This document shows positions 3,371 to 32,817 of a stretch of 36,974 bases of DNA, piece by piece. A program made the position numbers and the translations under genes. The notes under the pieces are model-generated. The model was not told where the DNA came from. It saw nothing but the letters and a program-made list of their open reading frames with translations, and ran no database searches. Position 1 is the stretch's first letter. Each line of letters begins with the position of its first letter. The stretch covers positions 1-36,974 of the forward strand of contig JABZFO010000040.1 in NCBI GenBank assembly GCA_014237405.1. The letters are read 5' to 3'. Source of the DNA: Desulfosarcina sp. GTDB taxonomy: Bacteria; Desulfobacterota; Desulfobacteria; Desulfobacterales; Desulfosarcinaceae.

Positions 3371-3441
3371 GTCAGCCTCCTTGGATCGGATAACAGGTTC
3401 GGACAAAGAGTCCGTCTGTCATTGTCCAATCCAAGTGGCTT

Positions 3442-9165: not shown

Positions 9166-12100
9166 CTATTCCTCTTCAAAGCCAAAGGTGTCAAAGCGTA
9201 GTGTGCGGCAGTTTTCAGTTACATCGCGAACTGTTTTATCGGATGCGCCATCCTGCAGTTGGGCTTGAATCTCGATCGTCACTTCAACGTTTGCGCCAAC
9301 GAGTTTCGTCAGGTGTTGGATCACCTCGTCGGCAACACGGCCGGCATCACGACCGACACGGAGAGAATCCAGCTTAACTGCTCCGTGGAACCGGCGATAG
9401 ATCGGTGGTTCAGGAAAGGCCGTTCTTCCCGATTCTTGATAGCCTGATTGTTTACCTCCCGCTGACTGATCCTGATCATTTGTCTGTTCAGTCGATGTTT
9501 GGTCTTCGCCGTTCGCCGCCTCTTGCTGTGCCGCCTCTGTTTCCTCTCGGCGTTGTTGTGTTGCCACATTTGACTTAACCAGAAGCGTCCCACCTTCCGC
9601 CTGGATGTTCGCGATACTGCCCGCGTCCAAACCCAGATACCGTCCGGTCTCTTCATCTTTCCCCTGGGCGTAGGCAAACGTATCGACTTCCCATGTTAAC
9701 CGAGAGATCCCCTCATGGATCGACGCCACAAGGACATCAGGATCACGCAGACGCGGCAGGTACATGTACGTTGCGAAATCTTCGATGAGTTGTTTCACCG
9801 GCACATCATCACCCCGCCATAGAGGAACACGATCCAGTTCCAGGCGGAGCCGGATACCCCCCATCTGGACGAGAAGCATTTCCTCGTTCTTTAGCTTCTT
9901 GCTGGCCCTCAAACCAAGAGATTCCGCGCCCTGCATGCGGATCTCCGACCATTCCAACGCTCCCCGAGATTCCGGTTGCCCCGGTACAAGCAACCACTGG
10001 TAAGTTTCCGGGATTCGAGCCCTGACGGTATCTTCCGCACCCTTACGCTTCGCGTCGGCCTGTTTTGACTGGAAAGGGTCGAGATTCAGTTGTTCCTTCT
10101 CATTCCAGATAGACTTCCACGCCAAGTATTGACGAATCGCAGCCTGCAACTCACGGAGACGAATTGCATCTCCCGCCAAGAAAACGAGAGTGTTTTTATA
10201 GGTGCGCGGGCTGTTGCCGCGATTGTCCAAAATGGCTTGAGCTTCTTTTCTGGCTGCACTGTCTGCTTGCCCCTTTGTGTGCGTATGTTCTGGCCCAAGG
10301 ATGACCAATCGTGCTTCATGCTCGTCCGGTATGTCACTGCTTTTCAAGCAGGCATGCACTCGATGGAAATTGCCTCGGCTTCGGGCTTCCTCACGAAGCC
10401 GTCGTACAATTTCATCGAAAACGTCATGTTCATGAAGCTGATTCGCCCTATCTTCCGCCAAGCGTGTTACTGTTGGTTGAGTTGAATACCAGAAGCGGTT
10501 GCCGTCCATGTAGAGGTAAGTTGCTTTGTCGGTCAAGCGGCGGATCGAATCCCCAAACGTCGCCACCGCTTCGCCCGGCTGTACGCAGCCGAGCTTGATC
10601 TGACGATCATCGATACCACGATTGGCCGCTCGCTGTGTCGGTGCTGAACCGATATAGATGGTCCTGGCTACGCGACGGCATGCTGAATACCGACCCAGGT
10701 TTGGCACTTTCTGATCCAGCCTCAAAGGAAGCGATTGTTTGCCGTCCACATCTTTGGCGATAACCGGCGTCCACTGGTCATCCAGGTAACGCGTCAGTTC
10801 AAACTGCACGGCCGGATCATCGATGGGTACGGTCGCCGGCATGATCAGCAGATTTCCATCCTGGCGCTCCCACAGTGAGTGAATCACTGCAGCCATTAAA
10901 CGAAGCACACCACGCGTCCGTTGGAACTTGTCCAGTGTTGACCAGTCATTGTAGAGCCTATCGAACAATTCCGGGTGAATCGGATAGGCCAGCTTGATGC
11001 GTCTCTGATACTCCGCCTCGCGGCACTCAGAGGGGAATTCGTTATGCTGCGTGCCGTACATATCCACGAACGCACGGGCGACGGCGTCAAGGGCCACGAA
11101 GGCTTTTTTGTCGGTAATCGGCTCGAACAAACGCCGGCGTACGATCTCAAAGCCTTCATCCGGACTGGCCGGCCGCCAACTTGCCTCAACCCGGCCGATT
11201 GCGTTCTTCAGGCGAGACAAAGCGCGCTGTCCCCAGTCGCCGCCGATCTCATTATCGGAGGCCGGAATACTGACCATCAGCAGTGTATTCTTCGCGGCCT
11301 TGGCCGCTTCACTCAGTGCTTGAGTAAAGGTGAACTGCGTATCAAAAGACCCGGCAGGCAGGTCGCTGCCTTCGTGTAATTGTCTTGCGTAGGCCACCCA
11401 TTCGTCGATAAGAATCAAGCAGGGTGAAAACCGGTTAAACAGCTCCTTGAGCTTATCGCCGGGATTGGTGGCGTTTTCATCATCGGCTCGGACCATTTCA
11501 AAGCCCTCTTTGCCGCCAAGTTGCCAGGCGATCTCTCCCCAGATGGTCCGAACGACTGTGCCGTCTTCTTTCGTACTCGGATTCCCGGGTGAAATCTTCG
11601 TGCCCACAATAACCACGCGATTCACGATTGAAGGCACTTCACACTGAAGGTCCTTAAGAATTAGCTCTAAGCCGGGTAGTTCTGAGGCTGTGGTCCCCGA
11701 AAACATGTGGTACAGCGCCAGCATGCTGTGGGTTTTGCCGCCGCCAAAATTGGTCTGTAATTCAATTACAGGGTCACCGCCTTGGCCCGTAAGTCGGCGC
11801 ACGGCGTTGCTCAATAGTTTATGCAAGCCTTCCGTGATGAAGGTCCGATGGAAAAATTCAGTCGGGTGCTGGTATTCTGCCGCTGCCTCACCCAGATACA
11901 CCTGCCAAAGATCGGCTGCAAACTCCGCCTGCTGGTACTTACCGCTAGCCACATCCTGGTGGGGTGTGACAATCTCGCGCCAAGGTTTTAATCCCCCCTT
12001 GGGATTACTTTCAGTTGGCTGGAAGGCGTCCTTGCGCATCTCGTTGCGACGTTGTTCGTCAAACCGGAGGCGCAACAGGGCCTGCTTCTGCTTTTCCAGA

Positions 12101-12474
12101 TCTTTGGCCTGGGGGGCGGACACGGCGGTAAGCAAACGCCCAATACTGTCAAACACACGATAGGCATCATCACTGGAAAACGCAGCCTGGTGCGCCCAAC
12201 GGTTGCGGATGTCGCGCAACTCGCTGACCAGTGACCGTTCGGCATGCCCCAGAGTGTTGCGGAAAACAGCATTCCACAAATCCCACAACACTTTCAGTAT
12301 GGCCGATGTATCCCAATTGACCTTGTCATACGAAGAAACGGGAAATAACTGCGCGACCTGCTCTTGCCAGTTGTCTTTGTAGATCGCCTGAAGTTCTCGT
12401 TCGATGAAGGGTTTTAAGCCCTTGTTGAGCAGTTCCAGGGCCTCGCCGACTTGTACGTGATTGCTTTTAGCCAT
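9166..12474 (-). CDS. DUF499 AAA+ ATPase with N-terminal HEPN-like domain (Hma-type defence)
   Basis: This 1102-aa cytoplasmic ATPase is of the DUF499/COG1483 type. Walker A is FGGGKTHS at residues 243-250 and Walker B is LILIDEW with D357-E358. Before the ATPase, residues 1-125 resemble a Swt1-type HEPN domain with the RX4H motif R90-N-R-W-A-H95, the signature of HEPN ribonucleases. Near residues 980-1015 is a Gln/Glu/Asn-rich linker before a C-terminal domain. The ATG at 12474 has GAGGA about 9 nt upstream, and the gene starts 29 nt after the methylase stop as the last gene of the operon. DUF499 proteins pair with DUF1156 methylases in defence islands; here it is probably the motor or sensor of the system. 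Whether the HEPN motif cuts RNA is an inference. Confidence 0.85.
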   Translation of the reverse strand: MAKSNHVQVGEALELLNKGLKPFIERELQAIYKDNWQEQVAQLFPVSSYDKVNWDTSAILKVLWDLWNAVFRNTLGHAERSLVSELRDIRNRWAHQAAFSSDDAYRVFDSIGRLLTAVSAPQAKDLEKQKQALLRLRFDEQRRNEMRKDAFQPTESNPKGGLKPWREIVTPHQDVASGKYQQAEFAADLWQVYLGEAAAEYQHPTEFFHRTFITEGLHKLLSNAVRRLTGQGGDPVIELQTNFGGGKTHSMLALYHMFSGTTASELPGLELILKDLQCEVPSIVNRVVIVGTKISPGNPSTKEDGTVVRTIWGEIAWQLGGKEGFEMVRADDENATNPGDKLKELFNRFSPCLILIDEWVAYARQLHEGSDLPAGSFDTQFTFTQALSEAAKAAKNTLLMVSIPASDNEIGGDWGQRALSRLKNAIGRVEASWRPASPDEGFEIVRRRLFEPITDKKAFVALDAVARAFVDMYGTQHNEFPSECREAEYQRRIKLAYPIHPELFDRLYNDWSTLDKFQRTRGVLRLMAAVIHSLWERQDGNLLIMPATVPIDDPAVQFELTRYLDDQWTPVIAKDVDGKQSLPLRLDQKVPNLGRYSACRRVARTIYIGSAPTQRAANRGIDDRQIKLGCVQPGEAVATFGDSIRRLTDKATYLYMDGNRFWYSTQPTVTRLAEDRANQLHEHDVFDEIVRRLREEARSRGNFHRVHACLKSSDIPDEHEARLVILGPEHTHTKGQADSAARKEAQAILDNRGNSPRTYKNTLVFLAGDAIRLRELQAAIRQYLAWKSIWNEKEQLNLDPFQSKQADAKRKGAEDTVRARIPETYQWLLVPGQPESRGALEWSEIRMQGAESLGLRASKKLKNEEMLLVQMGGIRLRLELDRVPLWRGDDVPVKQLIEDFATYMYLPRLRDPDVLVASIHEGISRLTWEVDTFAYAQGKDEETGRYLGLDAGSIANIQAEGGTLLVKSNVATQQRREETEAAQQEAANGEDQTSTEQTNDQDQSAGGKQSGYQESGRTAFPEPPIYRRFHGAVKLDSLRVGRDAGRVADEVIQHLTKLVGANVEVTIEIQAQLQDGASDKTVRDVTENCRTLRFDTFGFEEE

Positions 12475-12503
12475 GATTGTACATCCTCATGAATCAATTA
12501 TCC

Positions 12504-15500
12504 TTACTCGAATAGATCCTGTTGTTCACCGGTGCCTGCCGGCGTCTGTCGGGCCAACTTGCTGATCTCCGACCAGGCGAGGATCAGGCTGTTGTAGGCG
12601 ACTGCCTCACTGGCCCAGCCATTGCGCTCGCAAATGGTGTAAAGGCGATACGACAGGCCACGGGCTCTTTCGCCATAGTCGCCACCCAATTTTTGCAATA
12701 AATCGGAGGCTCCCGTTTCTCCCTGCTGGTCCAGAGCCCGAATCAGATGTTGAACGGCTTCCCATTCGGTCAGTCGGTCATCGATAGTCGGGTCCCAGTC
12801 GTCCGGGAGCGAATCACGCCCCAGAAGTTGCACCACACCAGAACGATTGCTGACGACTCCGGCCTCAACCAGTCCCTGAACCGACGTGTTTTTCGCTTTA
12901 CTGAGTGTCTCGGCGACACCGTAATCCCCTTCCTCCGTGCCGTATTGTTCGAACCAGGCGACCGCCCAGCGAGTATCGCCATCGAACTCGCCTTCCTGCT
13001 CGGCCAGCACTTCGTCCAATACTTGATTGATCAGCATGAGCGCTGCACGAACTGTCATCGGATCGCCATCCGCTTCAACAACCTTGGCGTACCGGCTGAA
13101 GATGGCCATGCCGGGACCGATGGCCGCCTGGGCCAGGTCCACCGGTGCAATGTTGCCGCTTTGCAGATTCCGCAGTGCGTCGGGCAGTTCTCGTTTGAGG
13201 GCGTTCAGGAATTCTCGCCGTGTGGCGAGCGAGGCATCATCGGAACGGGGAACGCAGACGAGGACGACCGAGGAGGCGAGAGCCGCGACCTTCTTCTTCA
13301 GATTCCCTGTCAACTCTGTCCGCATCGGCCACGTTCCTGTAATAGTAAACCCATGATCGATCACCCCGGTAAGGAATGTTTCCCATCCGGTGGAAGCCGT
13401 CCCATATCTATCGGTTTCGGCCTGCTTGAAGGCGTAGAAAATAGTCGTGGGATAATCGGCATTGCCGTGCTTGCACCATTTGCCGATTGCCGAGCCGAGT
13501 CCCGTTTCGAAGAACTCGGCGGCCTTTTGTTTGCTGCCATTGTGCCGATGGGGGCTGGCGATCAGTTCTTCCGCCTTCGGTGTCAGCATCGTCGAAAGCA
13601 GACTGGGATAAACCTTGTGGAGAGAACGCCGTAGCCAGGTATAGAAAAAATCGCTCAAATCAGCGTAGCCGATGTTATCGTAGTAGGGCGGATCAGTGGA
13701 GATAATTTCATCGGAGTAGGCATCATCGGCGGTGGCATCAAGTTGACTCACAACCGCTTCGCCTGATGCAACCGCATTTTCAAGGCAAAGGGTTGGATAC
13801 TTTAGTTGGCCAATCCAATTCCCAGATGAATCACTAAACGGACTTGCCTCGCAATAGTCCCAGGTCATCGGCAACGCTTGACGTCCAAATGCTTGCTGCA
13901 CCCCTTCTCGCGTTTGATCCCAAAAGGAAATGGTCGATAAGCGATTTGCTTGGCGACTTACCCCAAACGCCAAATACGTGTCGACAGCATCAGCGTAGGC
14001 TTGGGGGCCGGTGCCGCCTTCGGCGATGCCACGGCTGTCGGCGGGAAGTGCGCCGGTGGCTTGAGCGTCCTTCAGTACCTGCTCCCGAGCATCTTTCACC
14101 AAATCCGAAAACGTCGTAAGCGCCGTGAGCTGACGGGGCGTGAAGAGTTTCCAGTGTTGGTTCATGCCATAGAGCTGAACGCGAAAACCCAAGGCCTTTT
14201 CCGGGATATCTGTGACTGGGTAGTCTTCTGGCAATCCAGAATCAGCAATGCCTTCCTGTTCTTGAGATGGCGGGAGATAGACACGACCCCGTGTTCCTTC
14301 ACACACAATAGCCATCAACTTACTTTTCATCTCGCCTGCTCTTCCAGCTTCGCGGGCATGATCGAAGGGAATGGGTGAGTGCGTAATTAGGCATTTTGCA
14401 CCGGTTCTAACAACCGTCCCCTCATTCGGATCAAAGCCATCTGTCGGCTTCCCAACCTTCACCTTGAATTCATACGTTCCATTTTGCCGGTCAACCACCG
14501 GCCGGACGTATGTTTCCTTGCCTTTCTTCTTGCTGAGCCAGAAGGATCGCACCAAGGGCACGTGTTTGCTCTGGACCGACGGATCCGGGCTGGCGACCGT
14601 TCGTGCCCACAGCCAAGCAATAACGGTCAGTTCCTGGTTTTTGTTCTGTTCCAAGTCGGGACGGCCGTCGTCGATCATCACCTGTGTGATCTTGACCTTG
14701 GGATACAGGTGGCCGATTCGTTTTTCCGCTTCGTCCCGCATCCACTGGCCATAGTAGCGCACATCTTCAGCCAGGCCTCGCGCACCCTGCCACTGACGTT
14801 TGAACAGTTTCTTCTGTTTCCTGTTGCCTTCCTCCTGTCTTCTATCTCCTGGATTAACCGGCGGCAACCCGGCAAACTTCGGCGGAATCTCGATCAGAGC
14901 CTTGGTGATCAGTACCGGCACCGGGTTTAGGTCCGAGGCATGGGCGCGCAAACCGAGCCGCTGCGCCTCGAGCGGAATCGAACCACCTCCGCAAAACGGA
15001 TCGAGCACCGGCGGGGCATGTTCGGCAAGAAAATAATTCACCGCCTCGGCCGGGGCCAGACGGCAATTCACCTGCCACGCGGTATAGCGACCATCATTGG
15101 GAAGCGGACCGCCAGGATGCGTTTTTCCTTCCTCACGGCCAAAGACAATGGTCTTTTTGTTCAATTCGCCCCGTTCGATCATTCGTGAGGCAACACAACG
15201 GGCGATCTCGGCCCGGGCTTTGTTGATCACATTCGGGTTGTTGGAGTTTTCCCACCTGACGAGTTCCTCTATCAGATTAAACAGTTCGGCCCGCTTGATG
15301 CCGGCTCGCTCCTCATCCACGCTTCCATCAAGTTTCCTGTAAGCGGGATCGCTGGAAGGGTCGTCCACCAGTTGTGCAAAAAGTACGGCCCGGCAGGCCG
15401 CCAGCGGCCGCCGCGCCCACCAAAGATGCAGCGTCGAAGGATGCCCATGTCGTATCGACTTTTCGCGTGCCGCTTCCTTGTTAATGGCCGCCAACGGCAG

Positions 15501-15536
15501 GGCAACTTCAATCAGTTTTTTTCTATATTCAGCCAT
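12504..15536 (-). CDS. DUF1156 adenine-specific DNA methylase (Hma-type defence)
   Basis: This 1010-aa protein starts with a DUF1156 domain (residues 1-60, with SIRHGHPSTLHLWWARRPLA). SAM-binding motif I is LDPFCGGGSIPLEA at 178-190, and the catalytic motif IV is DPPYYDN at 615-621, typical of N6-adenine methylases. It probably marks host DNA so that the helicase/nuclease partners spare it. The spacing between the motifs (about 430 residues) is long and holds a specificity-like region. Residues 231-246 (DRRQEEGNRKQKKLFK) are encoded by a purine-rich repeat-like stretch that looks like an in-frame insertion. The ATG at 15536 is 17 nt after the TOPRIM gene stop, with GGGAAG about 10 nt upstream. 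Confidence 0.88.
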   Translation of the reverse strand: MAEYRKKLIEVALPLAAINKEAAREKSIRHGHPSTLHLWWARRPLAACRAVLFAQLVDDPSSDPAYRKLDGSVDEERAGIKRAELFNLIEELVRWENSNNPNVINKARAEIARCVASRMIERGELNKKTIVFGREEGKTHPGGPLPNDGRYTAWQVNCRLAPAEAVNYFLAEHAPPVLDPFCGGGSIPLEAQRLGLRAHASDLNPVPVLITKALIEIPPKFAGLPPVNPGDRRQEEGNRKQKKLFKRQWQGARGLAEDVRYYGQWMRDEAEKRIGHLYPKVKITQVMIDDGRPDLEQNKNQELTVIAWLWARTVASPDPSVQSKHVPLVRSFWLSKKKGKETYVRPVVDRQNGTYEFKVKVGKPTDGFDPNEGTVVRTGAKCLITHSPIPFDHAREAGRAGEMKSKLMAIVCEGTRGRVYLPPSQEQEGIADSGLPEDYPVTDIPEKALGFRVQLYGMNQHWKLFTPRQLTALTTFSDLVKDAREQVLKDAQATGALPADSRGIAEGGTGPQAYADAVDTYLAFGVSRQANRLSTISFWDQTREGVQQAFGRQALPMTWDYCEASPFSDSSGNWIGQLKYPTLCLENAVASGEAVVSQLDATADDAYSDEIISTDPPYYDNIGYADLSDFFYTWLRRSLHKVYPSLLSTMLTPKAEELIASPHRHNGSKQKAAEFFETGLGSAIGKWCKHGNADYPTTIFYAFKQAETDRYGTASTGWETFLTGVIDHGFTITGTWPMRTELTGNLKKKVAALASSVVLVCVPRSDDASLATRREFLNALKRELPDALRNLQSGNIAPVDLAQAAIGPGMAIFSRYAKVVEADGDPMTVRAALMLINQVLDEVLAEQEGEFDGDTRWAVAWFEQYGTEEGDYGVAETLSKAKNTSVQGLVEAGVVSNRSGVVQLLGRDSLPDDWDPTIDDRLTEWEAVQHLIRALDQQGETGASDLLQKLGGDYGERARGLSYRLYTICERNGWASEAVAYNSLILAWSEISKLARQTPAGTGEQQDLFE

Positions 15537-15553
15537 TTATTTTCGCTTCCCAC

Positions 15554-16180
15554 TCATGATAGGAGTTGTTTGACCCATTCCACGAATACCACGGCTTGAG
15601 CGTGCTCCGGATCGAGGTACTTTTTTTTGAATGTCTCACCCATCTTTGTGCCGGGCTCTTCCTGCCATGCCAGCCAAGTGTGAACCTGAGCTTTCGAGAG
15701 ATAGGTTGCCTTAAAACGCCGGTTATCCGCTGGGATGCCGTTGACATCCGCTTGTGCCTTCGGCCAAAGATTGTCCTCTTCGCCGATCAGCTTCCCTACG
15801 AAATCTTCCAGAGCCCCTGCACTCTGATTGTCCGGCATGACCCAGATTCCAATGCGTTTACCGTCTCTGGTCGCAACGATAGTTCCGTTAGCCGTGGGTT
15901 TATGGGGTACGTCGTCACAACCGTATTCTTCCAGCACGCGGGTCACTCTTGCCCACTGGGCGTCTAAATTGGTATCGGCATCGAGAATAACGCCAAGCCT
16001 TCCAAGGTCGGTTGCCCCGATCTCTTCTTTTAATGTGTCGATCAGGTGATCAACGCCCCCCTTTACCCTCTCATTGAAATGATCGCACAAAGGTTGACCT
16101 TGGTGTTCATGGTTGAACAGGAGATTCATGACGACATGTTTGTCGTCGGGGCCTTCAAATATGATTCGGTTAACCATCAT
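15554..16180 (-). CDS. TOPRIM-domain protein (DUF3226-like), partner of the upstream ATPase
   Basis: This 208-aa protein carries TOPRIM-type acidic residues: Glu9 in IIFEGPDDKHV and Asp67/Asp69 in VILDADTN. The TOPRIM fold coordinates metal in OLD-family and related nucleases. Its length and pattern fit DUF3226. The gene overlaps the ATPase gene by 4 nt (ATGA), and an ATPase followed by a separate TOPRIM protein is the layout of two-gene OLD-like and PARIS-like anti-phage modules; in PARIS the TOPRIM partner is DUF4435, so this is a different subtype. The expected role is an effector nuclease held inactive or activated by the ATPase. Nuclease activity is inferred. Confidence 0.75.
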   Translation of the reverse strand: MMVNRIIFEGPDDKHVVMNLLFNHEHQGQPLCDHFNERVKGGVDHLIDTLKEEIGATDLGRLGVILDADTNLDAQWARVTRVLEEYGCDDVPHKPTANGTIVATRDGKRIGIWVMPDNQSAGALEDFVGKLIGEEDNLWPKAQADVNGIPADNRRFKATYLSKAQVHTWLAWQEEPGTKMGETFKKKYLDPEHAQAVVFVEWVKQLLS

Positions 16181-17328
16181 CGGATTTCTATGGCCTCCTT
16201 CGTGATCACGGCGAGGCGGCTCTCGTCGAAGATCTCTACGCCGAACTCGCCGTTCCTCTTTTCAATCCGAACGGCAACCCCGGCCATCTCCTCATCGTCT
16301 TTGGTGCCGACATGGAACGCTCGCAGGCAGTCATTGCTGTGGGTAGTCGCGAACACCTGGACATTGAGACGCTTTGCAACTTTGACGACGAATTTCCAGA
16401 CCTCTGGAAGCGCGGACCAATGGATTCCATTTTCAATTTCGTCGACAAGCAGAATTCCGTCCTTGGCGCAGGCCAGAGCCATGCCAAGACCGAATAGCCG
16501 ATTCATGCCATCGCCCATGCTTTTGAGCGGAACGGGATCGCTGCTGCCCTTTAGCCGAAGGCGAATCGATGATGCGCGGTTGCCGAGGAGGGCGAAGTCA
16601 TCCGTCTCCGGAGCAATGATTCGCAAGGCATCAATGACATCATCTTTGGCGTCTGAAAGAACGACTTTTTCCCACAAAGACTGGAGGTAGACCTCATCCA
16701 GGCCGACATGGCTGACGAGGACGCAGGGAGTCGATAGGCCCCTGTTGGAGCGCATCTGTAAGTTCCATCGGCGACAAACATCTTCATACGCATCGTCCAA
16801 TTGCAAAACGCGTCGAATGGACCCGTATTTAACCACCATCGCAGGAAGGGGGCCGTCACCGTCGATGGTGCTCGACGGTCCAACCTCTACAAACTCCTGG
16901 CTCGCACTAATAATGCCTCCGTCATAACCGGCAGCCTCATAGAAGACGCCGGAGGCATCCATCTCACTGGTCCTGCGAAGCCATGTGATGGAAAGAGATA
17001 AGGTGCTGTCCGGCGCGCCGATGCGTCCGATTTGAATCGAGGAGGAAATCCATTCCAATGGTGGGTGGCCGTGAAAAAGACTCCAGGCAGTCGGTTCGGC
17101 GCTGGTTCCGTGACGGAGCTCCCCCGGCTCGTCACGGCCTTCGAGAATAGCCTGGATCACTTCCGGCGAACCGATATTCGCAAAAAGCCAGAGGGCTTCG
17201 AGCAATGTGGATTTCCCAACGTTATTTTTGCCAAGAATAAGATTCACGTTACCGAGCTGTTCAATTTTCAAGTAGTCAAATGCTCGGAACTGTCTGATCT
17301 CAAGGCTGTCAAAAAGAGTTTTAGCCAT
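16177..17328 (-). CDS. AAA (ABC/OLD-type) ATPase paired with the TOPRIM protein
   Basis: From the ATG at 17328 the protein is 383 aa; GGAG 6 nt upstream supports this start over the ATG at 17361, which has no good ribosome site. Walker A is GKNNVGKST near residue 34, a signature-like SMGDGMNRL lies about residue 268, Walker B is ILLVDEIENG near 291, and a switch His is in TTHSND near 326. This is the AAA_15/AAA_21 layout of OLD and related anti-phage ATPases. The gene is 45 nt after the GHKL ATPase stop and overlaps the TOPRIM gene. It probably senses infection and controls the TOPRIM partner. Its place between the large ATPase and the methylase suggests it is part of the same operon. Confidence 0.85.
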   Translation of the reverse strand: MAKTLFDSLEIRQFRAFDYLKIEQLGNVNLILGKNNVGKSTLLEALWLFANIGSPEVIQAILEGRDEPGELRHGTSAEPTAWSLFHGHPPLEWISSSIQIGRIGAPDSTLSLSITWLRRTSEMDASGVFYEAAGYDGGIISASQEFVEVGPSSTIDGDGPLPAMVVKYGSIRRVLQLDDAYEDVCRRWNLQMRSNRGLSTPCVLVSHVGLDEVYLQSLWEKVVLSDAKDDVIDALRIIAPETDDFALLGNRASSIRLRLKGSSDPVPLKSMGDGMNRLFGLGMALACAKDGILLVDEIENGIHWSALPEVWKFVVKVAKRLNVQVFATTHSNDCLRAFHVGTKDDEEMAGVAVRIEKRNGEFGVEIFDESRLAVITKEAIEIR

Positions 17329-17373
17329 AATTTGCTCCAAATCAGTGTATTGGTTTTCCATCCAGATTCATCA

Positions 17374-20300
17374 TCATGCATCCTTATCGCTATCTAACAC
17401 GAGCCGATAGTTTGCCGGGAACAGGGTCAGCCGACCGCTATTGCGCAGTTCCCGAATCCGGTGACCCGAGTATTCAACCGGCGTTCCATCGGGGCCAGCC
17501 AACAACAGGGTGTACTTTTCCGGGTGCTTGTCGCACAGTTCCCACACGTCGGCTTCCAACTGCAGCGGCTCACGCTCAATGCAATGATCCTTGGTCCAGT
17601 AACACTGCTGTAGCTCTCCGGATGATGAATATCGTTCCCAGGGGAAGCTGGCCCCGCTAATGCGCTCAATCCAGCCACCGTCTTCGTGGTAATATCGGCC
17701 TTCGCCGTTGTCCTTGATGAACCCACGAGTTTTGGCGTAACGTTCGATCAATTTGGGTTTCGCCGGTCGTTTTGGTCGGTTGGGCGGCGCGGGGGCATCG
17801 CCACCATGTTCTTCTTCATCCGAATTGGGCTCACCTTGGTCATCGGAGGAAACATCGTCCGTGGCTTTGGAATCATCAGCATCCGGGATAGGCTGTGAGC
17901 TTTCGGTGGCTTCGTCTGTGGATTGCGCTGCATCGCATGTTTCAGAATCCGTGGGCGTGGTGACAACAGTCTCTTCAGATGACACATTGGCATCTTCTTG
18001 ATTTGGTTTGCTGGATTCCTCTGCAGTGACCTCTTCAGGTGGCAGAAGTTTGAAATTCGCCTCCATGTATTCGGTGACAAACGCTGGGTCACGTTCTAAG
18101 CAGAGTTTGATCGAATCGACGATGTCCACTCGACCGAAAGCACGTCCCAATTCCTGGGCCACGGCCTTGGCCATTGTCGCTATGGACTTGCTCTTGACGT
18201 ACAGCGTCGTGTCCTTCCAGAGCACATCAATGCGTCGCGGAGTTCCCGATGGCGTTCCGTCGATATAGGGTGTGGTTTCAAGCGCTGCAACAACCTGCCA
18301 CTGAGTATGCATCAGACGGCGGCCAAGCTCCCGCGTCCGCTGGCTATCGACCTCATTATCAAGTACAACGCGGGCGAGACCACTCCCCAGGGAGGCAAGC
18401 CACTGCTTTGCTATGGCGTCCTCCAATTCGACAATCTTGTCTTCAAATCGATCCTCGATACTGGCGACAAGCGTCGGCAATTTCGCGAACGGATACTGTC
18501 CGCACATTTCAGCGGTCAGCTTCTGAAAATCCGCGGTCTTCTGCTTGATAGGCCTGAACAAATTGGCCCAGGGAATGAGAGTCTGCATGGTAAGCTTGTA
18601 GACCAGTTCCTCCACTGGAGCCCACACGCCGTCCAAGTTGAGCCAATGCCTGCATTCCAGCCAGATCCGCTCCGCATAACGGGGCAGGAGAGCACGAACG
18701 CGCCGGAGTTCATTTTTGGAGAGCTTCCTGTTGGATGGGATTCCGGCCAGCCACTTCAGCGCAAGATCACCCGTAGGGCGCTCGGCAACACCAACCTTGC
18801 GCCAAAGAGCCAGATCTTGAATCGCCGAATGAACCACAGCTGCGCAGGGAGCATCCTCTTCGTCCGCATTCAGAAACACCTCAGACGTGTATACCCACTC
18901 AGAGTCAGTGGTAAGGATGAGCTTTTCGTGAGTGAATACTCCTCTAATCTCTTGAAATTCATCGGTCGAACACCTGGCCGAAATATGATCGAGACGACGG
19001 CACCATTTCTCCACTTCGTTGACCGGTGGGTCGTCAACGGTTGATAGTGCCCGGAGACGGTCCAGGAGACGGTCCGGCCCCGTCGGTGTGTCTCGGACCC
19101 CGAGCATGACCAACAGCTGCCGAGTAGTCTCGGTGTCGAGTTCGGCACGCACGAAAGGCTCCACGTCTAGCAGGGACTCGGTATCTGGCGTGCGTCGAAG
19201 CAACTCGGCAGGATGCCGATAGTTGCCGCGTGTGTCCTGCAGGCAAGGTAAGTCACTGAACTTGATGATCCAGGAAGGCATAAGGACTTCATGTGTGACG
19301 GATTGTCTATATTTATTCCCATTCTGCCATACTTTAGCAGAGAGTGACTTTATCCAATATTCCTTTGGTTGAGCCAGTATACGTGTAAAAATGCGGCTCC
19401 AGAATTCTGGATCATCCTTCGCAGACAACATCCAAAAATTAAGATGTTCCTCGTCAAAGTCCCAATCTTTGATTGTAAAATTATCGCTTTTATAAGGGAA
19501 TAGGGGAACACCATCAAAACCACGTTCGCGCAACAACCTTCTAATTTTATTACGATTCCATACGCGATGCTCTGTTTTAATCAGAGGCACGAATGTCAGA
19601 AGTCTGCTCCGACCCGATGCCACCCATTGTCGCCATTCTTCTTCAGTACAGGACAAAAGAACACGATAATCCTCGTGAAGCACGTGCCCTTTGTACCAGT
19701 GGTCAGGGACGATTACATCAAGGTCATTGTGGATATCAGCAACGATGCAATCGCTGACTGGTTTGCGGTAACCATCCCAGGTTACGAACTGGAATTTCTC
19801 TGACGCTGATGCACCCAAGGACGCCGCTATTTGTGCCAATCGAATGCAGTCTTCAATATCGCAATCCTCTTGTCCGAAGAACTTATTAGCAACTTGCTGG
19901 ATCACCTGACTAACATCACCAGCCTGGCCAAGGCCAAGATCATCGAGAACCTTGTAGGCTGCTTTCACCTTCCTTTCCAAACTCCAATTTTTGTCTTGTT
20001 CCGCTTTTCGCCTCTGTTCTGCAAGGTACCGTGGCCAGTTCTGATTCAACACCAACAGATAGTCATCCAGAAACTGCCAATCCTCCTGTGACTGGAGCAG
20101 TTTCTTCTCGCCCAGACGCACAACCTTGGAGGCAGAGAACAGAATATCTTTCCCCTGTACAGGAAAAATCTGAACATTTTTATATTTACGGTTAAAAGGA
20201 TAACCAACTATGTCATCGGCTATGTAGTCCCACAACCAAAGAAGCTTGGCCCAGGACTCCGGTTTGGGTAAGTGCTTTGATATAAGCGTATCCAACACGT

Positions 20301-21618
20301 ATTCTTTGCCAAATTCATCACAACAGTTCAGATTGATAAGCTTGCGCCGATGCGCCGATATCACGTATCGGGAGAGAATCGGGCGGGCACCCTCGCTAAA
20401 CAATTGCACCACCTGATCCAATGACCATACGTCAAGAAGAACGCTTGGAAGAGCAATGCAGCCTTTTTCCTTCTCAAACGATCCGTCTTCTGTAATTAAA
20501 TATGGCTTGTTCGCTAAAGTGGTTTCGCAAGATTCCTGGACAATGCGCCCACAGTTTCCTTCGATAGAATGGTCCTCTCGATTTAAGTCAGAGAGCAGTG
20601 CGTAGGCTTTGCACCGTTGTTTGATGTCCAGATCGTTACGGCCTAGCCATTCAAGCATGGCCTTCGTTGCCAGCTTTCCCACTCGTTTCAGAATCCACCG
20701 GTTGGTAGGTGATGTCTCTGGGTCCTTTATTTTTACACGGGCCGGATCCTGAATAAACGGCGCATTGCATGCAAAGGGAAGCTCAGTCTTGACCCCCGTT
20801 GGAAGAATCACGAACAGTCGACCTTCCAAACCGAGAACGATTTCGATCTTACACGGCGGAAAGGATGTCTCTTCATCCACCGCAACCATACGTTCTTGGC
20901 GAATTTCCTCCAGCGCTTCCTCGGGGAAGGCTTCGGGGCTCGATTGAATCAGTAGGAACTGCCGATCCGAATCGCTTGCCAGTGCCATCCAGTGCGAGTC
21001 AGCGATCGGCCCGGGAGACTTCGCCTCCCACCGGATTTCCTGCCTGCGAACGATCAGACAACGGATGGATCGAAAGAAAAGCAACGATGCTGGGCTTTTC
21101 GTCCAGTCTTCAAGATTCTTTTCCAATTCACGAAGACGGTGATCATCTCGGATTGCCACACGAATTTCAGTGTGGGAGGCAGGCATTCCATTCCGCGTCT
21201 GCCACACGGGTTCCGTGAAGCGCTCCCGACAGAAGGCAACAGATAACGAGGGCGTATTGAGGCGAACTTCATCGCCGAGGCTGAAAGTGCTCTTAAACCC
21301 GACCCCACGAAAGCCGATGGTGTGAAGCGCCCGCTTATTGGAGTAACCGAAGCGGCACAGAGACGTGAAATGTTCCTCGATAAAATCCTCACCGTTATGA
21401 GTGAAGACAAAGTCTCCATCCTGAATGCCTACTGACGCCATGGTTGCTCCGGCATCGTCGGCATTCTGAAGAAGCTCCGAAACGACATGTCGCGGACTCT
21501 GGACCTGCTTGAACAATTGATGCCAAGGCCCCGCAAGCACGGGGTCTTGTTCCAGTTGCTCCCAGCGTCTGGCCGCGCGACAGCGGACCTCTTCGAAATA
21601 GACGGGAACATCTGTCAT
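17374..21618 (-). CDS. Large sacsin-like GHKL (Hsp90-type) ATPase
   Basis: This 1414-aa protein has an N-terminal Bergerat ATP-binding fold like that of sacsin/Hsp90: N-box ELLQNADDAGA at 48-58, HNGEDF at 74-79 and the lid GFRGVGFKSTF at 102-112. The long middle part has no recognised domain. Near residues 1195-1295 is a Ser/Glu/Asp/Thr-rich disordered linker, followed by a basic PKRPAKPK stretch and a C-terminal domain of about 110 residues with several Trp/Tyr. Its start overlaps the helicase stop by 4 nt (ATGA), suggesting coupled translation. Proteins of this type occur in defence operons beside helicases; a role as a conformational regulator or sensor is inferred. It is unusually large for a GHKL ATPase in bacteria. 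Confidence 0.82.
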   Translation of the reverse strand: MTDVPVYFEEVRCRAARRWEQLEQDPVLAGPWHQLFKQVQSPRHVVSELLQNADDAGATMASVGIQDGDFVFTHNGEDFIEEHFTSLCRFGYSNKRALHTIGFRGVGFKSTFSLGDEVRLNTPSLSVAFCRERFTEPVWQTRNGMPASHTEIRVAIRDDHRLRELEKNLEDWTKSPASLLFFRSIRCLIVRRQEIRWEAKSPGPIADSHWMALASDSDRQFLLIQSSPEAFPEEALEEIRQERMVAVDEETSFPPCKIEIVLGLEGRLFVILPTGVKTELPFACNAPFIQDPARVKIKDPETSPTNRWILKRVGKLATKAMLEWLGRNDLDIKQRCKAYALLSDLNREDHSIEGNCGRIVQESCETTLANKPYLITEDGSFEKEKGCIALPSVLLDVWSLDQVVQLFSEGARPILSRYVISAHRRKLINLNCCDEFGKEYVLDTLISKHLPKPESWAKLLWLWDYIADDIVGYPFNRKYKNVQIFPVQGKDILFSASKVVRLGEKKLLQSQEDWQFLDDYLLVLNQNWPRYLAEQRRKAEQDKNWSLERKVKAAYKVLDDLGLGQAGDVSQVIQQVANKFFGQEDCDIEDCIRLAQIAASLGASASEKFQFVTWDGYRKPVSDCIVADIHNDLDVIVPDHWYKGHVLHEDYRVLLSCTEEEWRQWVASGRSRLLTFVPLIKTEHRVWNRNKIRRLLRERGFDGVPLFPYKSDNFTIKDWDFDEEHLNFWMLSAKDDPEFWSRIFTRILAQPKEYWIKSLSAKVWQNGNKYRQSVTHEVLMPSWIIKFSDLPCLQDTRGNYRHPAELLRRTPDTESLLDVEPFVRAELDTETTRQLLVMLGVRDTPTGPDRLLDRLRALSTVDDPPVNEVEKWCRRLDHISARCSTDEFQEIRGVFTHEKLILTTDSEWVYTSEVFLNADEEDAPCAAVVHSAIQDLALWRKVGVAERPTGDLALKWLAGIPSNRKLSKNELRRVRALLPRYAERIWLECRHWLNLDGVWAPVEELVYKLTMQTLIPWANLFRPIKQKTADFQKLTAEMCGQYPFAKLPTLVASIEDRFEDKIVELEDAIAKQWLASLGSGLARVVLDNEVDSQRTRELGRRLMHTQWQVVAALETTPYIDGTPSGTPRRIDVLWKDTTLYVKSKSIATMAKAVAQELGRAFGRVDIVDSIKLCLERDPAFVTEYMEANFKLLPPEEVTAEESSKPNQEDANVSSEETVVTTPTDSETCDAAQSTDEATESSQPIPDADDSKATDDVSSDDQGEPNSDEEEHGGDAPAPPNRPKRPAKPKLIERYAKTRGFIKDNGEGRYYHEDGGWIERISGASFPWERYSSSGELQQCYWTKDHCIEREPLQLEADVWELCDKHPEKYTLLLAGPDGTPVEYSGHRIRELRNSGRLTLFPANYRLVLDSDKDA

Positions 21619-24600
21619 CGCGGCGATTCCCCTTTGGCGAGCAACTCTGCCAGTTTGTAATTGACGCTGGTTACGCCGAAATCGGGTTCTCGGCCAAAGG
21701 GCTCGCGTATATAGGTGATCTTCGCCGCATCCTCGCCATCGACCTCCACGACGGCCAGTATGAATTGCTCCGGCTTGTTCAATGCGGTGAGAATCTCGTT
21801 CTTGGTGATGGTGACGGTGTCGGCTCCTTGGACCCGCCCCTTAACCTCAACGAAGCGAAGTCGGGCGTTCCCATTGGGATCGCGGGACTCCACGTCATAG
21901 CCGCACTTATCTGCTGATACATCACGGGGATCGAATCCCAGTTCTCGTTCGATCTCCATCACAGCCTTCATTGCGATCATCTCAACACGTTTGGTTTCCT
22001 TTGCCTGGAGAGCAGGAGCAATGGATGAATCAGAGATTTTATTGAGCAGGCCAATCGGAATGATCATCGCGCCGGCAATGACATTAGGGGGAAGTGGAGA
22101 GATTCGGCGTTCCTGCTGAAGATCTTCCATGCGCTTTTGAAGACGCATCGTCAGTTCGTCGGCACGCTGACGCGCTTTTTCTGAATTGATCTTGGCGTTT
22201 ACCTTTCCCGCAAGTTCCTCCTGCTTGAGTTGCTCGGCACGATGATCCCAATGATTGATTTCAACGGTAAGACGATCCTTGACCGCTGCCATCGTTTTGT
22301 CTACCAGTTCCTCTTTGCGCGATTTCACCTCCAGAAGGTGGTTTGGCACCAGAGTCTGAACGGCATACCCGAGAGCACAAGTCTCGATTTTATCTCGTAA
22401 CCAACCCGGCTGTTCCATTTCCTGGACCAGTTTACGTTCCGAACCCGTGGGAGGCCGGTAATCAAGGTAAGGAGCATATCCAGCCCGGCGAACCTGGTCA
22501 CCTTCTGTCACCTCGGCGAACTGAATCTGACGAGAGACAATTCTCCGGTTGCCAGTGTGGTCAGTTCGGGCATCTTGAATAGAGTGCTCAAGGAAGACGA
22601 GCGCACGAACTTCCTCCCCTGGGTCACCCTCATCGATCAAAATCGCACCTTGTTTAAGAAGGTCACGGTGCCTTTCAAGGATCAGATCAAGTGTAGCTTC
22701 AAGCAGTGGATGTCCCGGACAGACAAACTCAGCCATAGGCTTTCCAGGCTCACTGATCAGGTCTTTTTCAAAGGACAAGCGTTCGTATCGTGTGAGCACG
22801 GGGTCGCGCATACCGATAATGCGGTCCCGGTTACGAATGACAGCGGGGACATGAGTGGCCTCGTATCGTTTAGGCTCCCTTTCCCTTAATGTGCCGCCAA
22901 GCCGTTTGAACGCCTCGTTGAAGAATGAAGCAACAAAATGCGGCTGAAGCCTTCGCGCTTCAGCACGCTCCATGTCTTCTCTAATTTCCTGAACACGAGA
23001 GGCATCCATCGAGTCATGGGCAAGCGCATGCTCTTCGATCAGATCACGAAGCTTGTCGCGATCCATTGCAATATCAACGACTTCATTGAGGCGGGCGCGC
23101 ACCTCCGGTCGATCGCCGTAGCGAATGGCTTCCATCAGCAGTTTCCGAAGAGGCTTATCGTCAAAAGTAAGCTTGCCCAGAATATCGAAAACTTTGCCGC
23201 CAAGCGCCTTACGTTCCTCGTCCAACTTTTCCAATAGGCGACGATAGACATCGCCTTCTCTCGTCTTTGATGCAACGAGATTCCAGCAATGGCAAACTTC
23301 GGTCTGACCGATTCGGTGAATACGCCCAAAACGCTGTTCGAGACGATTGGGATTCCACGGCAGGTCATAATTGACCATCAAGTGGGCGCGTTGGAGATTG
23401 ATACCTTCTCCAGCGGCATCCGTGGCCAATAACACTTCCGTTTCCTTGTCCTGCGTAAACAGCGTTTCCGCCTTCTTACGTTTTTCACGACCCATTCCAC
23501 CATGAATGGTCACGATGGCTTCCGGTTTTCCGATCACGGAGCCGATACGTTCCTGAAGGTAATTCAGGGTATCTCGGTGCTCGGTAAAAATAATGAGCTT
23601 CCGGCGGTGGCCATGGGCGTCGAACATCTCTGTTTGATTCTGAAGAAGCCGGGACAGTTCATCCCATTTGCGATCCGATTGCGATTGTCGGACACGCAGC
23701 GCAACTTGCGCCAGATCCTTTAGTATCTCTATTTCCGCCTTCAGTTCGGCGATGGTCTGGGCTGCAGAAGCCAGGTCGACGACACGCTCTTCGGTGTCTT
23801 CAACCTCCTCATCCGGCGCATCCTCAAAGTCTTCAAGGTCGTCTTCGGAAAAAGCAGGTAGGTCGTTCTGCCAATCGATACAAACCTCTACACCCCGCTT
23901 AAGAAGCTCCTCTTCCCGGCACCGTTTTTCGAGACGCTCCCTACGTCTTCGGAGCGACTGATAAATGGCCTCGGGAGAGGATGCGAGGCGGCGCTGAAGG
24001 ACGGTGAGAGCAAAACCGATAGTGCCCCTGCGTCCATTGTTTGCGAGTTGTTCGGCTCTGTTGAACTCCTCACGAACATACTCTGTGACACGCTGATAAA
24101 GATGGGCCTCTCCATCAGAGAGCTCGTATTTAACGGTGTAGGCTTTCCGTTCGGGGAACAGCGGGCGACCATCGAACTTCAGTAGGTCTTCTTTGACCAT
24201 TCGGCGCATCAGATCTGACGCATTTACCGAATGAACGCCATCCCGAAATTTTCCCTCGAATCGGTCCCCATCAACCAGGGCCATGAACAGTTGGAAATCT
24301 TCTTCCTTACCGTTATGCGGAGTTGCTGTCAGAAGCAGGAAATGCCTCGTCAGTGTGGAAAGTAGTTGGCCCAACTTGTAGCGTTTGGTCCGGCGAATCT
24401 CACCGCCCCAGAACGAGGCACTCATTTTATGGGCTTCGTCGCAGACCACGACGTCCCAATCGGTGGTCTTGAGTTTTTCCTGCACGTCCTCATTGCGGCT
24501 GAGCTTGTCGAGACGACAAATCGAGAGTGGATTTTCCGAGAACCAGTTCCCGGTCCGTGCCGCCTCGTACTTGTCATTCGTCATGATCTCGAAGGGTAGA

Positions 24601-25127
24601 TGGAAGCGCCGATAGAGTTCGTCCTGCCACTGTTCGACCAGATTGCCCGGGCAAACAATCAGGCACCGTTGCAGATCGCCGCGCGCAATCAGTTCTTTGA
24701 TCAGCAACCCAGTCATAATGGTCTTTCCGGCACCAGGATCATCTGCAAGTAAAAAACGAAGCGGTTGGCGCGGAAGCATCGTCTCATAAACGGCAGTAAT
24801 CTGGTGCGGCAGCGGATCCACGAGCGAGGTATGAACGGCTAACAGCGGATCAAAGAGGTAGGCAAGGCGGATGCGGTGCGCCTCGGAAACAAGCCGGAAC
24901 AGGTCAGGATCACCGTCGAAGCTCCATGGCTTTCCGGATTCCAAGATTTCGAGATCGTCCTCACGATCCCGATAAATCAGTTCGTTCGCCAGTTTTCCCT
25001 TACTGTCTTTATATGTGAGTTCGATGGCAACGGAGCCAATCCATGACACATCGACAACGGTGATGAACCCATCGGGTAGGATGCCTTTAACACTCGCTCC
25101 GCGTTTCAATTCTTCAAGTCGGGCCAC
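21615..25127 (-). CDS. SNF2/DEAH superfamily 2 helicase with C-terminal DUF3883
   Basis: The protein is 1170 aa with a GTG start at 25127. Motif I is LADDPGAGKT at 127-136, motif II DEAH at 230-233, motif III TATPHNG from 267, and the second RecA domain has DAAGEGINLQ and QRFGRIHRIGQ (motifs V-VI). The C-terminus is DUF3883-like, with GYDVES and FVEVKGR (D1078, E1094, K1096), a PD-(D/E)XK-type nuclease-like pattern. It is thus a DNA translocase with a possible nuclease tail, the helicase of the helicase-methylase-ATPase set. It is the first large gene of the operon; its start overlaps the stop of a small HTH ORF by one base. Confidence 0.9.
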   Translation of the reverse strand: MARLEELKRGASVKGILPDGFITVVDVSWIGSVAIELTYKDSKGKLANELIYRDREDDLEILESGKPWSFDGDPDLFRLVSEAHRIRLAYLFDPLLAVHTSLVDPLPHQITAVYETMLPRQPLRFLLADDPGAGKTIMTGLLIKELIARGDLQRCLIVCPGNLVEQWQDELYRRFHLPFEIMTNDKYEAARTGNWFSENPLSICRLDKLSRNEDVQEKLKTTDWDVVVCDEAHKMSASFWGGEIRRTKRYKLGQLLSTLTRHFLLLTATPHNGKEEDFQLFMALVDGDRFEGKFRDGVHSVNASDLMRRMVKEDLLKFDGRPLFPERKAYTVKYELSDGEAHLYQRVTEYVREEFNRAEQLANNGRRGTIGFALTVLQRRLASSPEAIYQSLRRRRERLEKRCREEELLKRGVEVCIDWQNDLPAFSEDDLEDFEDAPDEEVEDTEERVVDLASAAQTIAELKAEIEILKDLAQVALRVRQSQSDRKWDELSRLLQNQTEMFDAHGHRRKLIIFTEHRDTLNYLQERIGSVIGKPEAIVTIHGGMGREKRKKAETLFTQDKETEVLLATDAAGEGINLQRAHLMVNYDLPWNPNRLEQRFGRIHRIGQTEVCHCWNLVASKTREGDVYRRLLEKLDEERKALGGKVFDILGKLTFDDKPLRKLLMEAIRYGDRPEVRARLNEVVDIAMDRDKLRDLIEEHALAHDSMDASRVQEIREDMERAEARRLQPHFVASFFNEAFKRLGGTLREREPKRYEATHVPAVIRNRDRIIGMRDPVLTRYERLSFEKDLISEPGKPMAEFVCPGHPLLEATLDLILERHRDLLKQGAILIDEGDPGEEVRALVFLEHSIQDARTDHTGNRRIVSRQIQFAEVTEGDQVRRAGYAPYLDYRPPTGSERKLVQEMEQPGWLRDKIETCALGYAVQTLVPNHLLEVKSRKEELVDKTMAAVKDRLTVEINHWDHRAEQLKQEELAGKVNAKINSEKARQRADELTMRLQKRMEDLQQERRISPLPPNVIAGAMIIPIGLLNKISDSSIAPALQAKETKRVEMIAMKAVMEIERELGFDPRDVSADKCGYDVESRDPNGNARLRFVEVKGRVQGADTVTITKNEILTALNKPEQFILAVVEVDGEDAAKITYIREPFGREPDFGVTSVNYKLAELLAKGESPR

Positions 25128-25282
25128 TATGACTCTCGTTTTCTGGTTTCTGGGTTTTCATTATTTTTTGGGGAAACGTTCGCTCCGCCGCTTATCACCC
25201 ACTCGTCGACTTCCCTTTTGTTGAACTTCCAGAGTCGACCAATTTTGTGTCCTGGCATCGGTCTTCCATCATTCGTCTCCAT
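25127..25282 (-). CDS. Truncated excisionase-like (HTH_17) DNA-binding ORF
   Basis: The ORF gives 51 aa beginning METNDGRPMPGHKIGRLWKF, followed by NKREVDEWV. GHKIGRLWKFNKREVDEW is the conserved recognition-helix/wing end of excisionase-type HTH domains (usually 60-90 aa). The N-terminal HTH half is missing: an in-frame TGA precedes the ATG, and 25283-25460 shows no matching sequence. The TAG stop shares a base with the helicase GTG (TAGTG), so the intact gene was probably the operon's regulator. The IS1634-like element begins 180 nt upstream. It is either a remnant or a mini-protein; the tail (NNENPETRKRES) comes from a purine-rich repeat-like sequence. Confidence 0.55.
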   Translation of the reverse strand: METNDGRPMPGHKIGRLWKFNKREVDEWVISGGANVSPKNNENPETRKRES

Positions 25283-25461
25283 TCATGCTTGGCCTCATGG
25301 GTTGTCGTCTTTCAACGGCCTCTTACTATCGGTTCATGGATAGGTTTGCCAGGATTCAGCCTTTCAGGTCTTTCATCCTAACAAGCAAAAATAAAAGATA
25401 TCAGAGAAAGATCGATTGTTAAACCGTTTTTCAGATTGTATTCAGTTTTAACCCATTTTAA

Positions 25462-27336: not shown

Positions 27337-27409
27337 TTTAACCGATTGATATTATTTAAACTGAAGAATAATACTGTTTCGGACCATGATATTTTATAAA
27401 GTTTGATAT

Positions 27410-32564: not shown

Positions 32565-32580
32565 GGCTGACCTCCATTTT

Positions 32581-32636
32581 GGGGGTAACAGATTTTGCGC
32601 GGGGGTAATTCTGCTTAAATCTACCCCCGTTACCCC
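32581..32636. promoter_or_regulatory. Putative integrase arm-type sites, right end
   Basis: GGGGGTAA occurs at 32581-32588 and 32601-32608, and inverted copies (ACCCCC, TTACCCC) lie at 32623-32636. TTTTGGGGGTA also occurs inside the island's left end. The cluster sits between the integrase start and the tRNA. Confidence 0.5.
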
Positions 32637-32681
32637 TGGATGTCAACGGTTTTTACTGGTCTTGGTTGGACAACAGAAATG

Positions 32682-32710
32682 AAAAAATGCCTTTAAATTA
32701 AGGGCTTTTT
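32682..32710 (-). terminator. Rho-independent terminator downstream of tRNA-Ala
   Basis: On the minus strand, GCCCTT and AAGGC arms around an AT loop are followed by ATTTTTTC. It lies about 32 nt beyond the tRNA 3' end and probably ends its transcript. A similar hairpin lies left of the other att copy. Confidence 0.55.
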
Positions 32711-32741
32711 GTACTGCATCGTACTGTATTGGATTGTGATT

Positions 32742-32755
32742 TGGTGGAGGTGAGG
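32742..32755. other. Right attachment site (att) repeat
   Basis: TGGTGGAGGTGAGG, the last 14 nt of tRNA-Ala, is identical to 3486-3499. It marks the integrase-proximal end of the island. Confidence 0.7.
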
Positions 32756-32817
32756 GGGCTCGAACCCCTGACCTCAGCGTTGCGAACGCTGCGCTCTCCC
32801 AGCTGAGCTACACCCCC
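32742..32817 (-). tRNA. tRNA-Ala (anticodon CGC)
   Basis: A full cloverleaf of 76 nt: acceptor GGGGGTG pairs with CACCTCC, D-arm GCTCAGCTGGGAGAGC, anticodon stem CAGCG/CGCTG with loop TTCGCAA (anticodon CGC), T-arm with GGTTCGAGCC, and an encoded CCA end. The integrative island is inserted at its 3' end, which is rebuilt by the element's att sequence. Confidence 0.95.

Follow-up and report, generated by a model that had tools for sequence, protein, structure and literature searches.

Is the long operon on this contig of Desulfosarcina sp. (assembly GCA_014237405.1, contig JABZFO010000040.1; "the window" below means the whole stretch analyzed, 36,974 nucleotides) a single six-part defence machine, or a known system with passengers? 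A preliminary description, made from the sequence alone, had leaned toward the former: a helicase, a DUF1156 methylase and a DUF499 ATPase of the Hma type, joined by a GHKL ATPase and an ATPase-TOPRIM pair, all possibly acting as one composite. Only part of that proposal stands. The window probably holds a four-gene variant of the restriction-like defence system Hma (Type-1 BR), in the order hmaA-GHKL-hmaB-hmaC, with an autonomous PDC-M38 pair inserted between the GHKL gene and hmaB. The GHKL gene is thus kept as a likely additional Hma component, while the pair, found in one of 35 Hma loci and free-standing on plasmids, is separate cargo.

Analysis of open reading frames (ORFs) shows six of them filling 9166-25127, all on the minus strand, as had been described; the upstream edge lies at 25127, the first start codon of the hmaA frame, instead of at 25282. 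Both 4-nt overlaps reported earlier are present, between helicase and GHKL genes at 21615-21618 (ATGA) and between ATPase and TOPRIM genes at 16177-16180. The hmaA product (21615..25127, 1170 amino acids) is an SNF2/DEAH helicase with a C-terminal NOV_C (DUF3883) nuclease domain of the PD-(D/E)XK type; it matches PADLOC HmaA at 1740.7 bits (residues 1-1169) and Pfam NOV_C at 78.5 bits (1048-1140), and a pattern search finds GAGKT, DEAH and GYD..VEVKG. HmaB (12504..15536, 1010 amino acids), a DUF1156 N6-adenine methyltransferase, scores 1261.7 bits against its PADLOC profile and has motif I (DPFCGGG) at residue 179 and DPPY at residue 615; the target-recognition insert is expected between the two, as a nested target-recognition domain (TRD; PMC12839542). 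In HmaC (9166..12474, 1102 amino acids; PADLOC HmaC 1151.6 bits, residues 162-1101) a DUF499 AAA+ ATPase is fused to an N-terminal Swt1-type HEPN domain (Pfam HEPN_Swt1 123.8 bits, residues 12-119; RNRWAH at residue 90), which had gone unmentioned in the preliminary description. With HmaA, HmaB and HmaC together in one same-strand operon, a nuclease domain closing the helicase and HEPN joined to the DUF499 ATPase, the locus belongs to Hma / Type-1 BR and to its HEPN-fused subset, in agreement with the type first assigned. The other domain calls also hold: SNF2/Helicase_C with NOV_C, sacsin-type GHKL, AAA_21/AAA_15, DUF3226, DUF1156 and DUF499. PglZ, the hallmark of BREX / Type-3 BR, had no match in the six operon proteins or the ten Pfam-scanned window ORFs, and an identity with those systems was rejected.

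What, then, is the second gene? It encodes 1414 amino acids (17374..21618) and is our proposed fourth component, a sacsin-type GHKL ATPase with a predicted ATP site: the window protein has ELLQNADDA, HNGEDF and GFRGVGFKS, which we take to be the N-, G1- and G2-boxes. NCBIfam NF047352 matches at 71.7 bits (cut-off 50), Pfam SACS at 29.3 bits, below its cut-off of 32.8. Among 12 aligned full-length copies, the window's included and every one from an Hma locus, the N- and G2-boxes occur in all 12 and a G1-like pattern in 11, and a conserved C-terminal stretch covers approximately residues 1285-1411. PADLOC-DB 2.0.0 models match at the N-terminus only, the best being a TmtA profile (168.1 bits; residues 40-328 of 1414, profile positions 73-370 of 1486). 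An identity with TmtA (presumably Tiamat) was rejected, as a whole-protein match is lacking and the best stretches of all TmtA matches end by residue 345. Four Orc1 sequences that matched at E 0.25-0.27 in a search of solved structures were taken as noise.

The case for this gene as an Hma part rests on where it is found. Queries with the GHKL protein matched at least three loci in genome contigs; ten plasmid records, three of them with a full-length copy, of which two are from one Bradyrhizobium strain (the second, L090, was merged with L007 into one locus); and at least one locus among IMG/VR viral contigs (L011, found twice among the scans). There was no match in phages, and three further scans of viral contigs by exact short peptides, one for HmaC and two for GHKL, found none; the genome-contig and viral scans all used such peptides, so their counts are lower bounds. 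In genome samples, searched at an E limit of 1e-20 (own phylum) or 1e-30 (others), which leaves remote relatives uncounted, and with some genomes shared between samples, the gene was present in 1/395 of the window's own phylum, 1/203 of its own order, 4/347 of the class of a Phycisphaerae match and 4/149 of the order of a Methanosarcinaceae match, one of the last with two copies. The total is 13 distinct loci (the window, L004-L008, L011 and L059-L064) in bacteria, archaea and one viral contig, 12 of them found by GHKL rather than Hma queries. The preliminary description had made frequency of embedding the measure of its proposal, and here the GHKL gene does well: in all 13 it comes after hmaA in the same orientation, and it is in turn followed by hmaB in all 12 whose contig extends that far. 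The 4-nt overlap with hmaA recurs in seven (the window, L004, L005, L011, L059, L060 and L061; in L004 and L060 read from locus gene/ORF listings), and in the remaining six the two genes are separated by a further gene (L006, L007, L008, L062) or an 86-amino-acid ORF (L063, L064). No plasmid matched when the entire operon was searched by megablast.

Association with hmaB points the same way. In the class sample the gene occurs in 4/16 hmaB-positive genomes vs 0/331 others (p = 3.1e-6), or 3/15 once the genome on which the sample was centred is removed (p = 6.6e-5); in the Methanosarcinaceae-order sample without G396 and G397 the figures are 2/6 vs 0/141 (p = 0.0014). The sample centres, G395 and G396, and also G397, were known positives beforehand. 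G397, from the latter sample, has a GHKL gene and no hmaB match, on a 4-kb contig that stops inside the GHKL gene. Distances among GHKL proteins parallel those among HmaA, HmaB and HmaC proteins (Mantel r 0.65, 0.54 and 0.68, with 2, 0 and 0 of 9999 permutations as high). The NOV_C motif pattern is seen in 10/10 GHKL-positive HmaA proteins (L007 with G for D) vs 12/20 GHKL-negative ones, these being related sequences and not independent. The GHKL gene is a recurrent partner of Hma in both bacteria and archaea and, because it keeps a constant place behind hmaA and was not found in the other settings searched, looks like an overlooked fourth part.

The next two genes present a different picture. 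An OLD/ABC-type ATPase (16177..17361, 394 amino acids) precedes a putative DUF3226 nuclease (15554..16180, 208 amino acids). The first matches Pfam AAA_21/AAA_15, as its earlier label of AAA ATPase implied, with its best PADLOC match to PDC-M38A (282.3 bits) and a lower one to AriA (92.6 bits). For the second, Pfam gives DUF3226 (194.7 bits) and PADLOC gives PDC-M38B (164.9 bits); the TOPRIM label depends on DUF3226 having a TOPRIM fold, which we assume. The term OLD/ABC follows usage for such pairs in PMC12839542. Neighboring genes matching M38A and M38B make this a PDC-M38 pair, and identity with PARIS was rejected on the difference between the AriA and PDC-M38A scores and the absence of AriB among the second gene's matches. 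A search of solved structures gave no match for the TOPRIM protein (E up to 0.1) or the OLD protein (E up to 0.001). Presence elsewhere was checked by ORFs of at least 200 amino acids and then by tblastn over all 34 other Hma loci: the pair is in the window alone, that is 1/35 Hma loci and 1/13 GHKL loci (weak partial OLD-only matches of 31.6 and 33.9 bits in L065 and L078 were not counted). DUF3226 occurs on nine plasmid records, and the four copies opened, one from Plesiomonas and three from Acinetobacter, are all ATPase-DUF3226 pairs (one ATPase annotated as two pieces), with no Hma gene within the fetched stretches. On the measure of embedding, the pair therefore fails where the GHKL gene succeeds. 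Because it is so rare in Hma loci and stands free on plasmids, it is best described as an independent module, a known kind of hitch-hiking pair, riding as cargo in the interval between hmaA and hmaB.

Could the GHKL gene be a passenger as well? Several results weigh against its being a system component, and they start from its distribution on Hma trees. These were built from 30 HmaA, 31 HmaC and 33 HmaB proteins encoded by single ORFs and covering >55% of the query; GHKL loci are over-represented in them, having been sought. L006 was left out. The HmaA tree lacks L004 and L060, the HmaB tree lacks L005, and the HmaC tree lacks both L005 and L061; for HmaB, L011 is represented by the first piece of its split gene only. 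The 21 GHKL-free loci (L065-L085) comprise eight phylum hmaB matches and 13 of the 60 plasmid rows listed (108 records), chosen without re-taking three GHKL-holding plasmid rows, so that the 35-locus set cannot give a GHKL frequency. Presence of the gene needs five, six and four changes on the HmaA, HmaC and HmaB trees; it is nonetheless clustered, with 3, 19 and 0 of 500 shuffles as low. It has been gained or lost several times, and is an optional element found in a minority: among plasmid records covering at least 80% of HmaB, it is in 3/81. By HmaA and HmaB the window's nearest row is L059, which has the gene, but by HmaC the nearest are L070 and L072, which lack it; in both, the slot is occupied by a Schlafen-type gene, and the L070 copy shares 54% identity across 539 residues with the Schlafen-type neighbor of the GHKL gene in L006. 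The second Hma operon of the window's own genome (L009; G000:C112:31000-50999) also lacks it, and has a 124-amino-acid protein and Septu PtuA and PtuB between hmaA and hmaB. In the own-phylum sample the link with hmaB is not significant (1/48 vs 0/347, p = 0.12), the sole positive being the window's genome; none of the remaining 394 genomes in the phylum sample or 202 in the order sample (partly overlapping sets) has a GHKL match. The GHKL gene has probably moved, since the L007/L008 copies group with L011 and their HmaA proteins do not. AlphaFold2 models (mean pLDDT 42.3 for residues 1-1195 and 55.9 for the last 140, four sequences each) were too poor to use. Finally, the three remote relatives that combine a sacsin-type GHKL part and a nuclease domain in one chain (H4, H8 and H10; two NOV_C, one HNH) were selected by annotation from seven partial matches, with H5, H6, H7 and H9 left out.

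One way to read this distribution is that the gene is mere cargo: a defence that works on its own from a single gene, bears a remote likeness to TmtA (Tiamat), and prefers the hmaA-hmaB slot just as Septu, PARIS-like, Schlafen and further modules do. Many different modules do occupy that slot, the gene is patchy on the trees, and its N-terminal part reaches 168.1 bits against TmtA profiles; on the other hand, the TmtA stretches leave most of the protein, beyond residue 345 of 1414, unaccounted for, no full-length copy was found outside Hma in plasmids (all three full-length records are Hma loci), phages or genome samples, and in 9/13 loci the gene sits beside other slot genes rather than replacing them. 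We consider this reading rather unlikely. Far less can be said for all six genes forming one composite machine, which we regard as very improbable: the single strand, short gaps and 4-nt overlaps of the window are what such a machine might be expected to show, but the OLD-TOPRIM pair is missing from 12 of the 13 GHKL loci as well as from nearly all Hma loci, and two of the stand-alone plasmid pairs (L087, L088) have the same 4-nt overlap.

If the four-gene Hma variant is accepted, what might the GHKL protein do? HmaB would mark self DNA; HmaC, an AAA+ protein with a HEPN RNase, would assemble a scanning complex; and HmaA would translocate and cut unmarked DNA by its NOV_C nuclease. The GHKL protein could be a clamp, driven by ATP and probably dimerizing, which detects either the target or the complex and permits the HmaA nuclease to act, with the OLD-TOPRIM pair as a separate back-up abortive effector for which the operon is a carrier. 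A role as a switch for the nuclease is suggested by the relatives that fuse GHKL and nuclease domains, and by the NOV_C domain here ending HmaA, whose gene directly precedes the GHKL gene; a role in reading specificity seems less likely. This second role, a sub-case of the four-gene variant whose chances overlap with it, would have the central region of the GHKL protein read the same sites as the HmaB TRD, both diversifying together. It draws on two operons on separate contigs of one archaeal genome (L063 and L064 in G861), with nearly identical hmaA and hmaC DNA. Their HmaB proteins differ most in the stretch from motif I to DPPY (residues 321-400 and 481-560, pN ~0.4) and their GHKL proteins in the middle (residues 321-480 and 641-800, pN ~0.2), with GHKL residues 1281-1440, which lie between the diverged GHKL middle and the diverged part of HmaB, near-identical. 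This is a single pair of operons, and chance patterns of gene conversion could produce the same picture. Comparison across loci does not support the idea: GHKL-middle and HmaB-TRD distances give a partial r of -0.20 with HmaA held constant (nine loci) and 0.22 with HmaC held constant (ten loci; reached by 521/4999 permutations), and other GHKL blocks track the HmaB TRD equally or better. We think such a reader unlikely. Slightly less likely again is its fullest form, in which a restriction system of four parts would have the GHKL protein as its specificity subunit: the variable middle of that protein would read the sites, or their methylation, set by the HmaB recognition domain, closure of its ATP-driven clamp would switch on the HmaA nuclease, and HmaB/GHKL pairs would diversify together on a constant HmaA/HmaC chassis. 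HsdS would be the parallel from Type I restriction, the reader here being a chaperone-like ATPase instead. Between L063 and L064 the DNA can be aligned only from ~170 bp ahead of hmaA to 1 kb past hmaC, and they look like separate loci.

The hmaA-hmaB interval is a cargo site, in which genes other than the GHKL gene vary among loci. Extra genes stand behind the GHKL gene in five loci (the window, L004 and L059-L061) and before it in four (L006-L008 and L062; the far side of L006 is out of view). There are none in L005 and L011, and L063 and L064 have only the 86-amino-acid ORF, before the GHKL gene. Cargo types include a PLD-type nuclease, a Schlafen-type protein, an ASCH-like protein (weak) and others. 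In L062, stray pieces of an hmaB start and an hmaA end flank the cargo before the GHKL gene, as expected if cargo arrives via recombination between Hma operons, of which they are a likely footprint. A two-gene cargo recurs behind the GHKL gene (L004:6043-7523; L060:7347-8824, minus strand; L061:12898-14393), encoding proteins of 321-324 and 169-175 amino acids that are 61-72% identical between loci, though the GHKL proteins there are only 38-53% identical. In L004 the larger is weakly DUF6731-like, under the cut-off, with no PADLOC match, and the smaller, a membrane protein by eye, matches only RexB in PADLOC (E 0.009); the two possibly form an unlisted defence module. A GmrSD_N-type gene between hmaB and hmaC (L061:17405-19186) marks a second cargo site in Hma. 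On the IMG/VR contig, L011, an integrase and a WYL-like gene (by eye) precede hmaA-GHKL-hmaB-hmaC, and hmaB is split by an insertion whose ORF looks, by eye, like a transposase.

The region around the operon looks like a mobile island. A tyrosine integrase at 31350-32817 adjoins a tRNA-Ala, and integrase pieces lie at 1657-3406; a 20-base piece of the tRNA-Ala 3' end, allowing up to three mismatches, matched only the tRNA itself in the window, and so no attachment-site pair emerged. Outside the system, ~330 bp upstream of hmaA, is an insertion sequence (25457..27341, plus strand) with a DDE transposase (25641-27152, Pfam DDE_Tnp_1) between 22-nt inverted repeats. A DUF6339 protein at 428-1186 (PADLOC PDC-M33C, 274.9 bits) is a defence candidate. 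Three overlapping plus-strand genes at 4678-8247 encode 318, 291 and 583 amino acids; the last has tetratricopeptide repeats, the first two have no Pfam match, and none of the three has a PADLOC match.

How much of this has been described before? Hma was named in 2021 and found in 26 phyla (PMC8565338), and a 2026 paper in NAR (PMC12839542) treats it as Type-1 BR, related to Type-3 BREX, in 2446 taxa. That paper counts 1370 taxa whose DUF499 ATPase is fused to HEPN, gives 79% as the share of Type-1 taxa with a fused helicase-nuclease, and assigns OLD-ABC/TOPRIM pairs the part of back-up effectors in BREX and BR loci; GHKL, MORC, Hsp90, Tiamat and DUF3226 do not occur in its main text. A 2013 paper (PMC3710099) had already placed HEPN-DUF499 proteins in operons with an SNF2-DUF3883 helicase; it also described fusions of paraMORC GHKL ATPases with Ymh HEPN domains, found in restriction neighborhoods. 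PMC12255303 and PMC12988326 cite a 2024 preprint that deals with defences lodged inside other systems, Hma included. A literature search on GHKL, sacsin or Tiamat with Hma, DUF499 or anti-phage found no paper on this GHKL gene, the 2024 "guilt-by-embedding" preprint and supplementary tables lying outside its scope. Within that literature and the profile libraries covered, the earlier phrase "previously undescribed" fits the GHKL gene; it does not fit the OLD-TOPRIM pair, a PADLOC candidate (PDC-M38), or the published Hma core. Hma/Type-1 BR systems are widespread, yet their modes of target recognition and nuclease control are, in the literature covered here, proposals only; a large ATPase that archaea and bacteria alike retain next to the helicase-nuclease would offer a concrete handle on that step. 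A GHKL protein in Hma would also link ATPases of the sacsin/Hsp90 type to restriction, and the same operon shows how to tell a likely component, constant in place and not found elsewhere, from embedded cargo, variable and free-standing elsewhere.

Set beside known systems, the window resembles Hma / Type-1 BR in its HmaA helicase-NOV_C, HmaB DUF1156 N6-methyltransferase and HmaC DUF499 AAA+ protein with HEPN, and departs from it in having a 1414-amino-acid GHKL gene behind hmaA. Its embedded pair is like PDC-M38 in that both proteins match the pair profiles and their genes are adjacent and overlapping, but is embedded in Hma, unlike the four plasmid copies opened. PARIS has the same succession of an ABC-type ATPase and a TOPRIM-type gene, although the window ATPase scores higher on PDC-M38A and its partner is DUF3226, with no AriB match. 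Septu, as present in L009, is likewise an ATPase-nuclease pair in the hmaA-hmaB slot; there the pair matches PtuB/HNH profiles, rather than DUF3226 as in the window. With Tiamat (TmtA) the window's GHKL protein shares a sacsin-type GHKL part at the N-terminus, where the best matches stop by residue 345; unlike Tiamat, it stands not alone but beside Hma.

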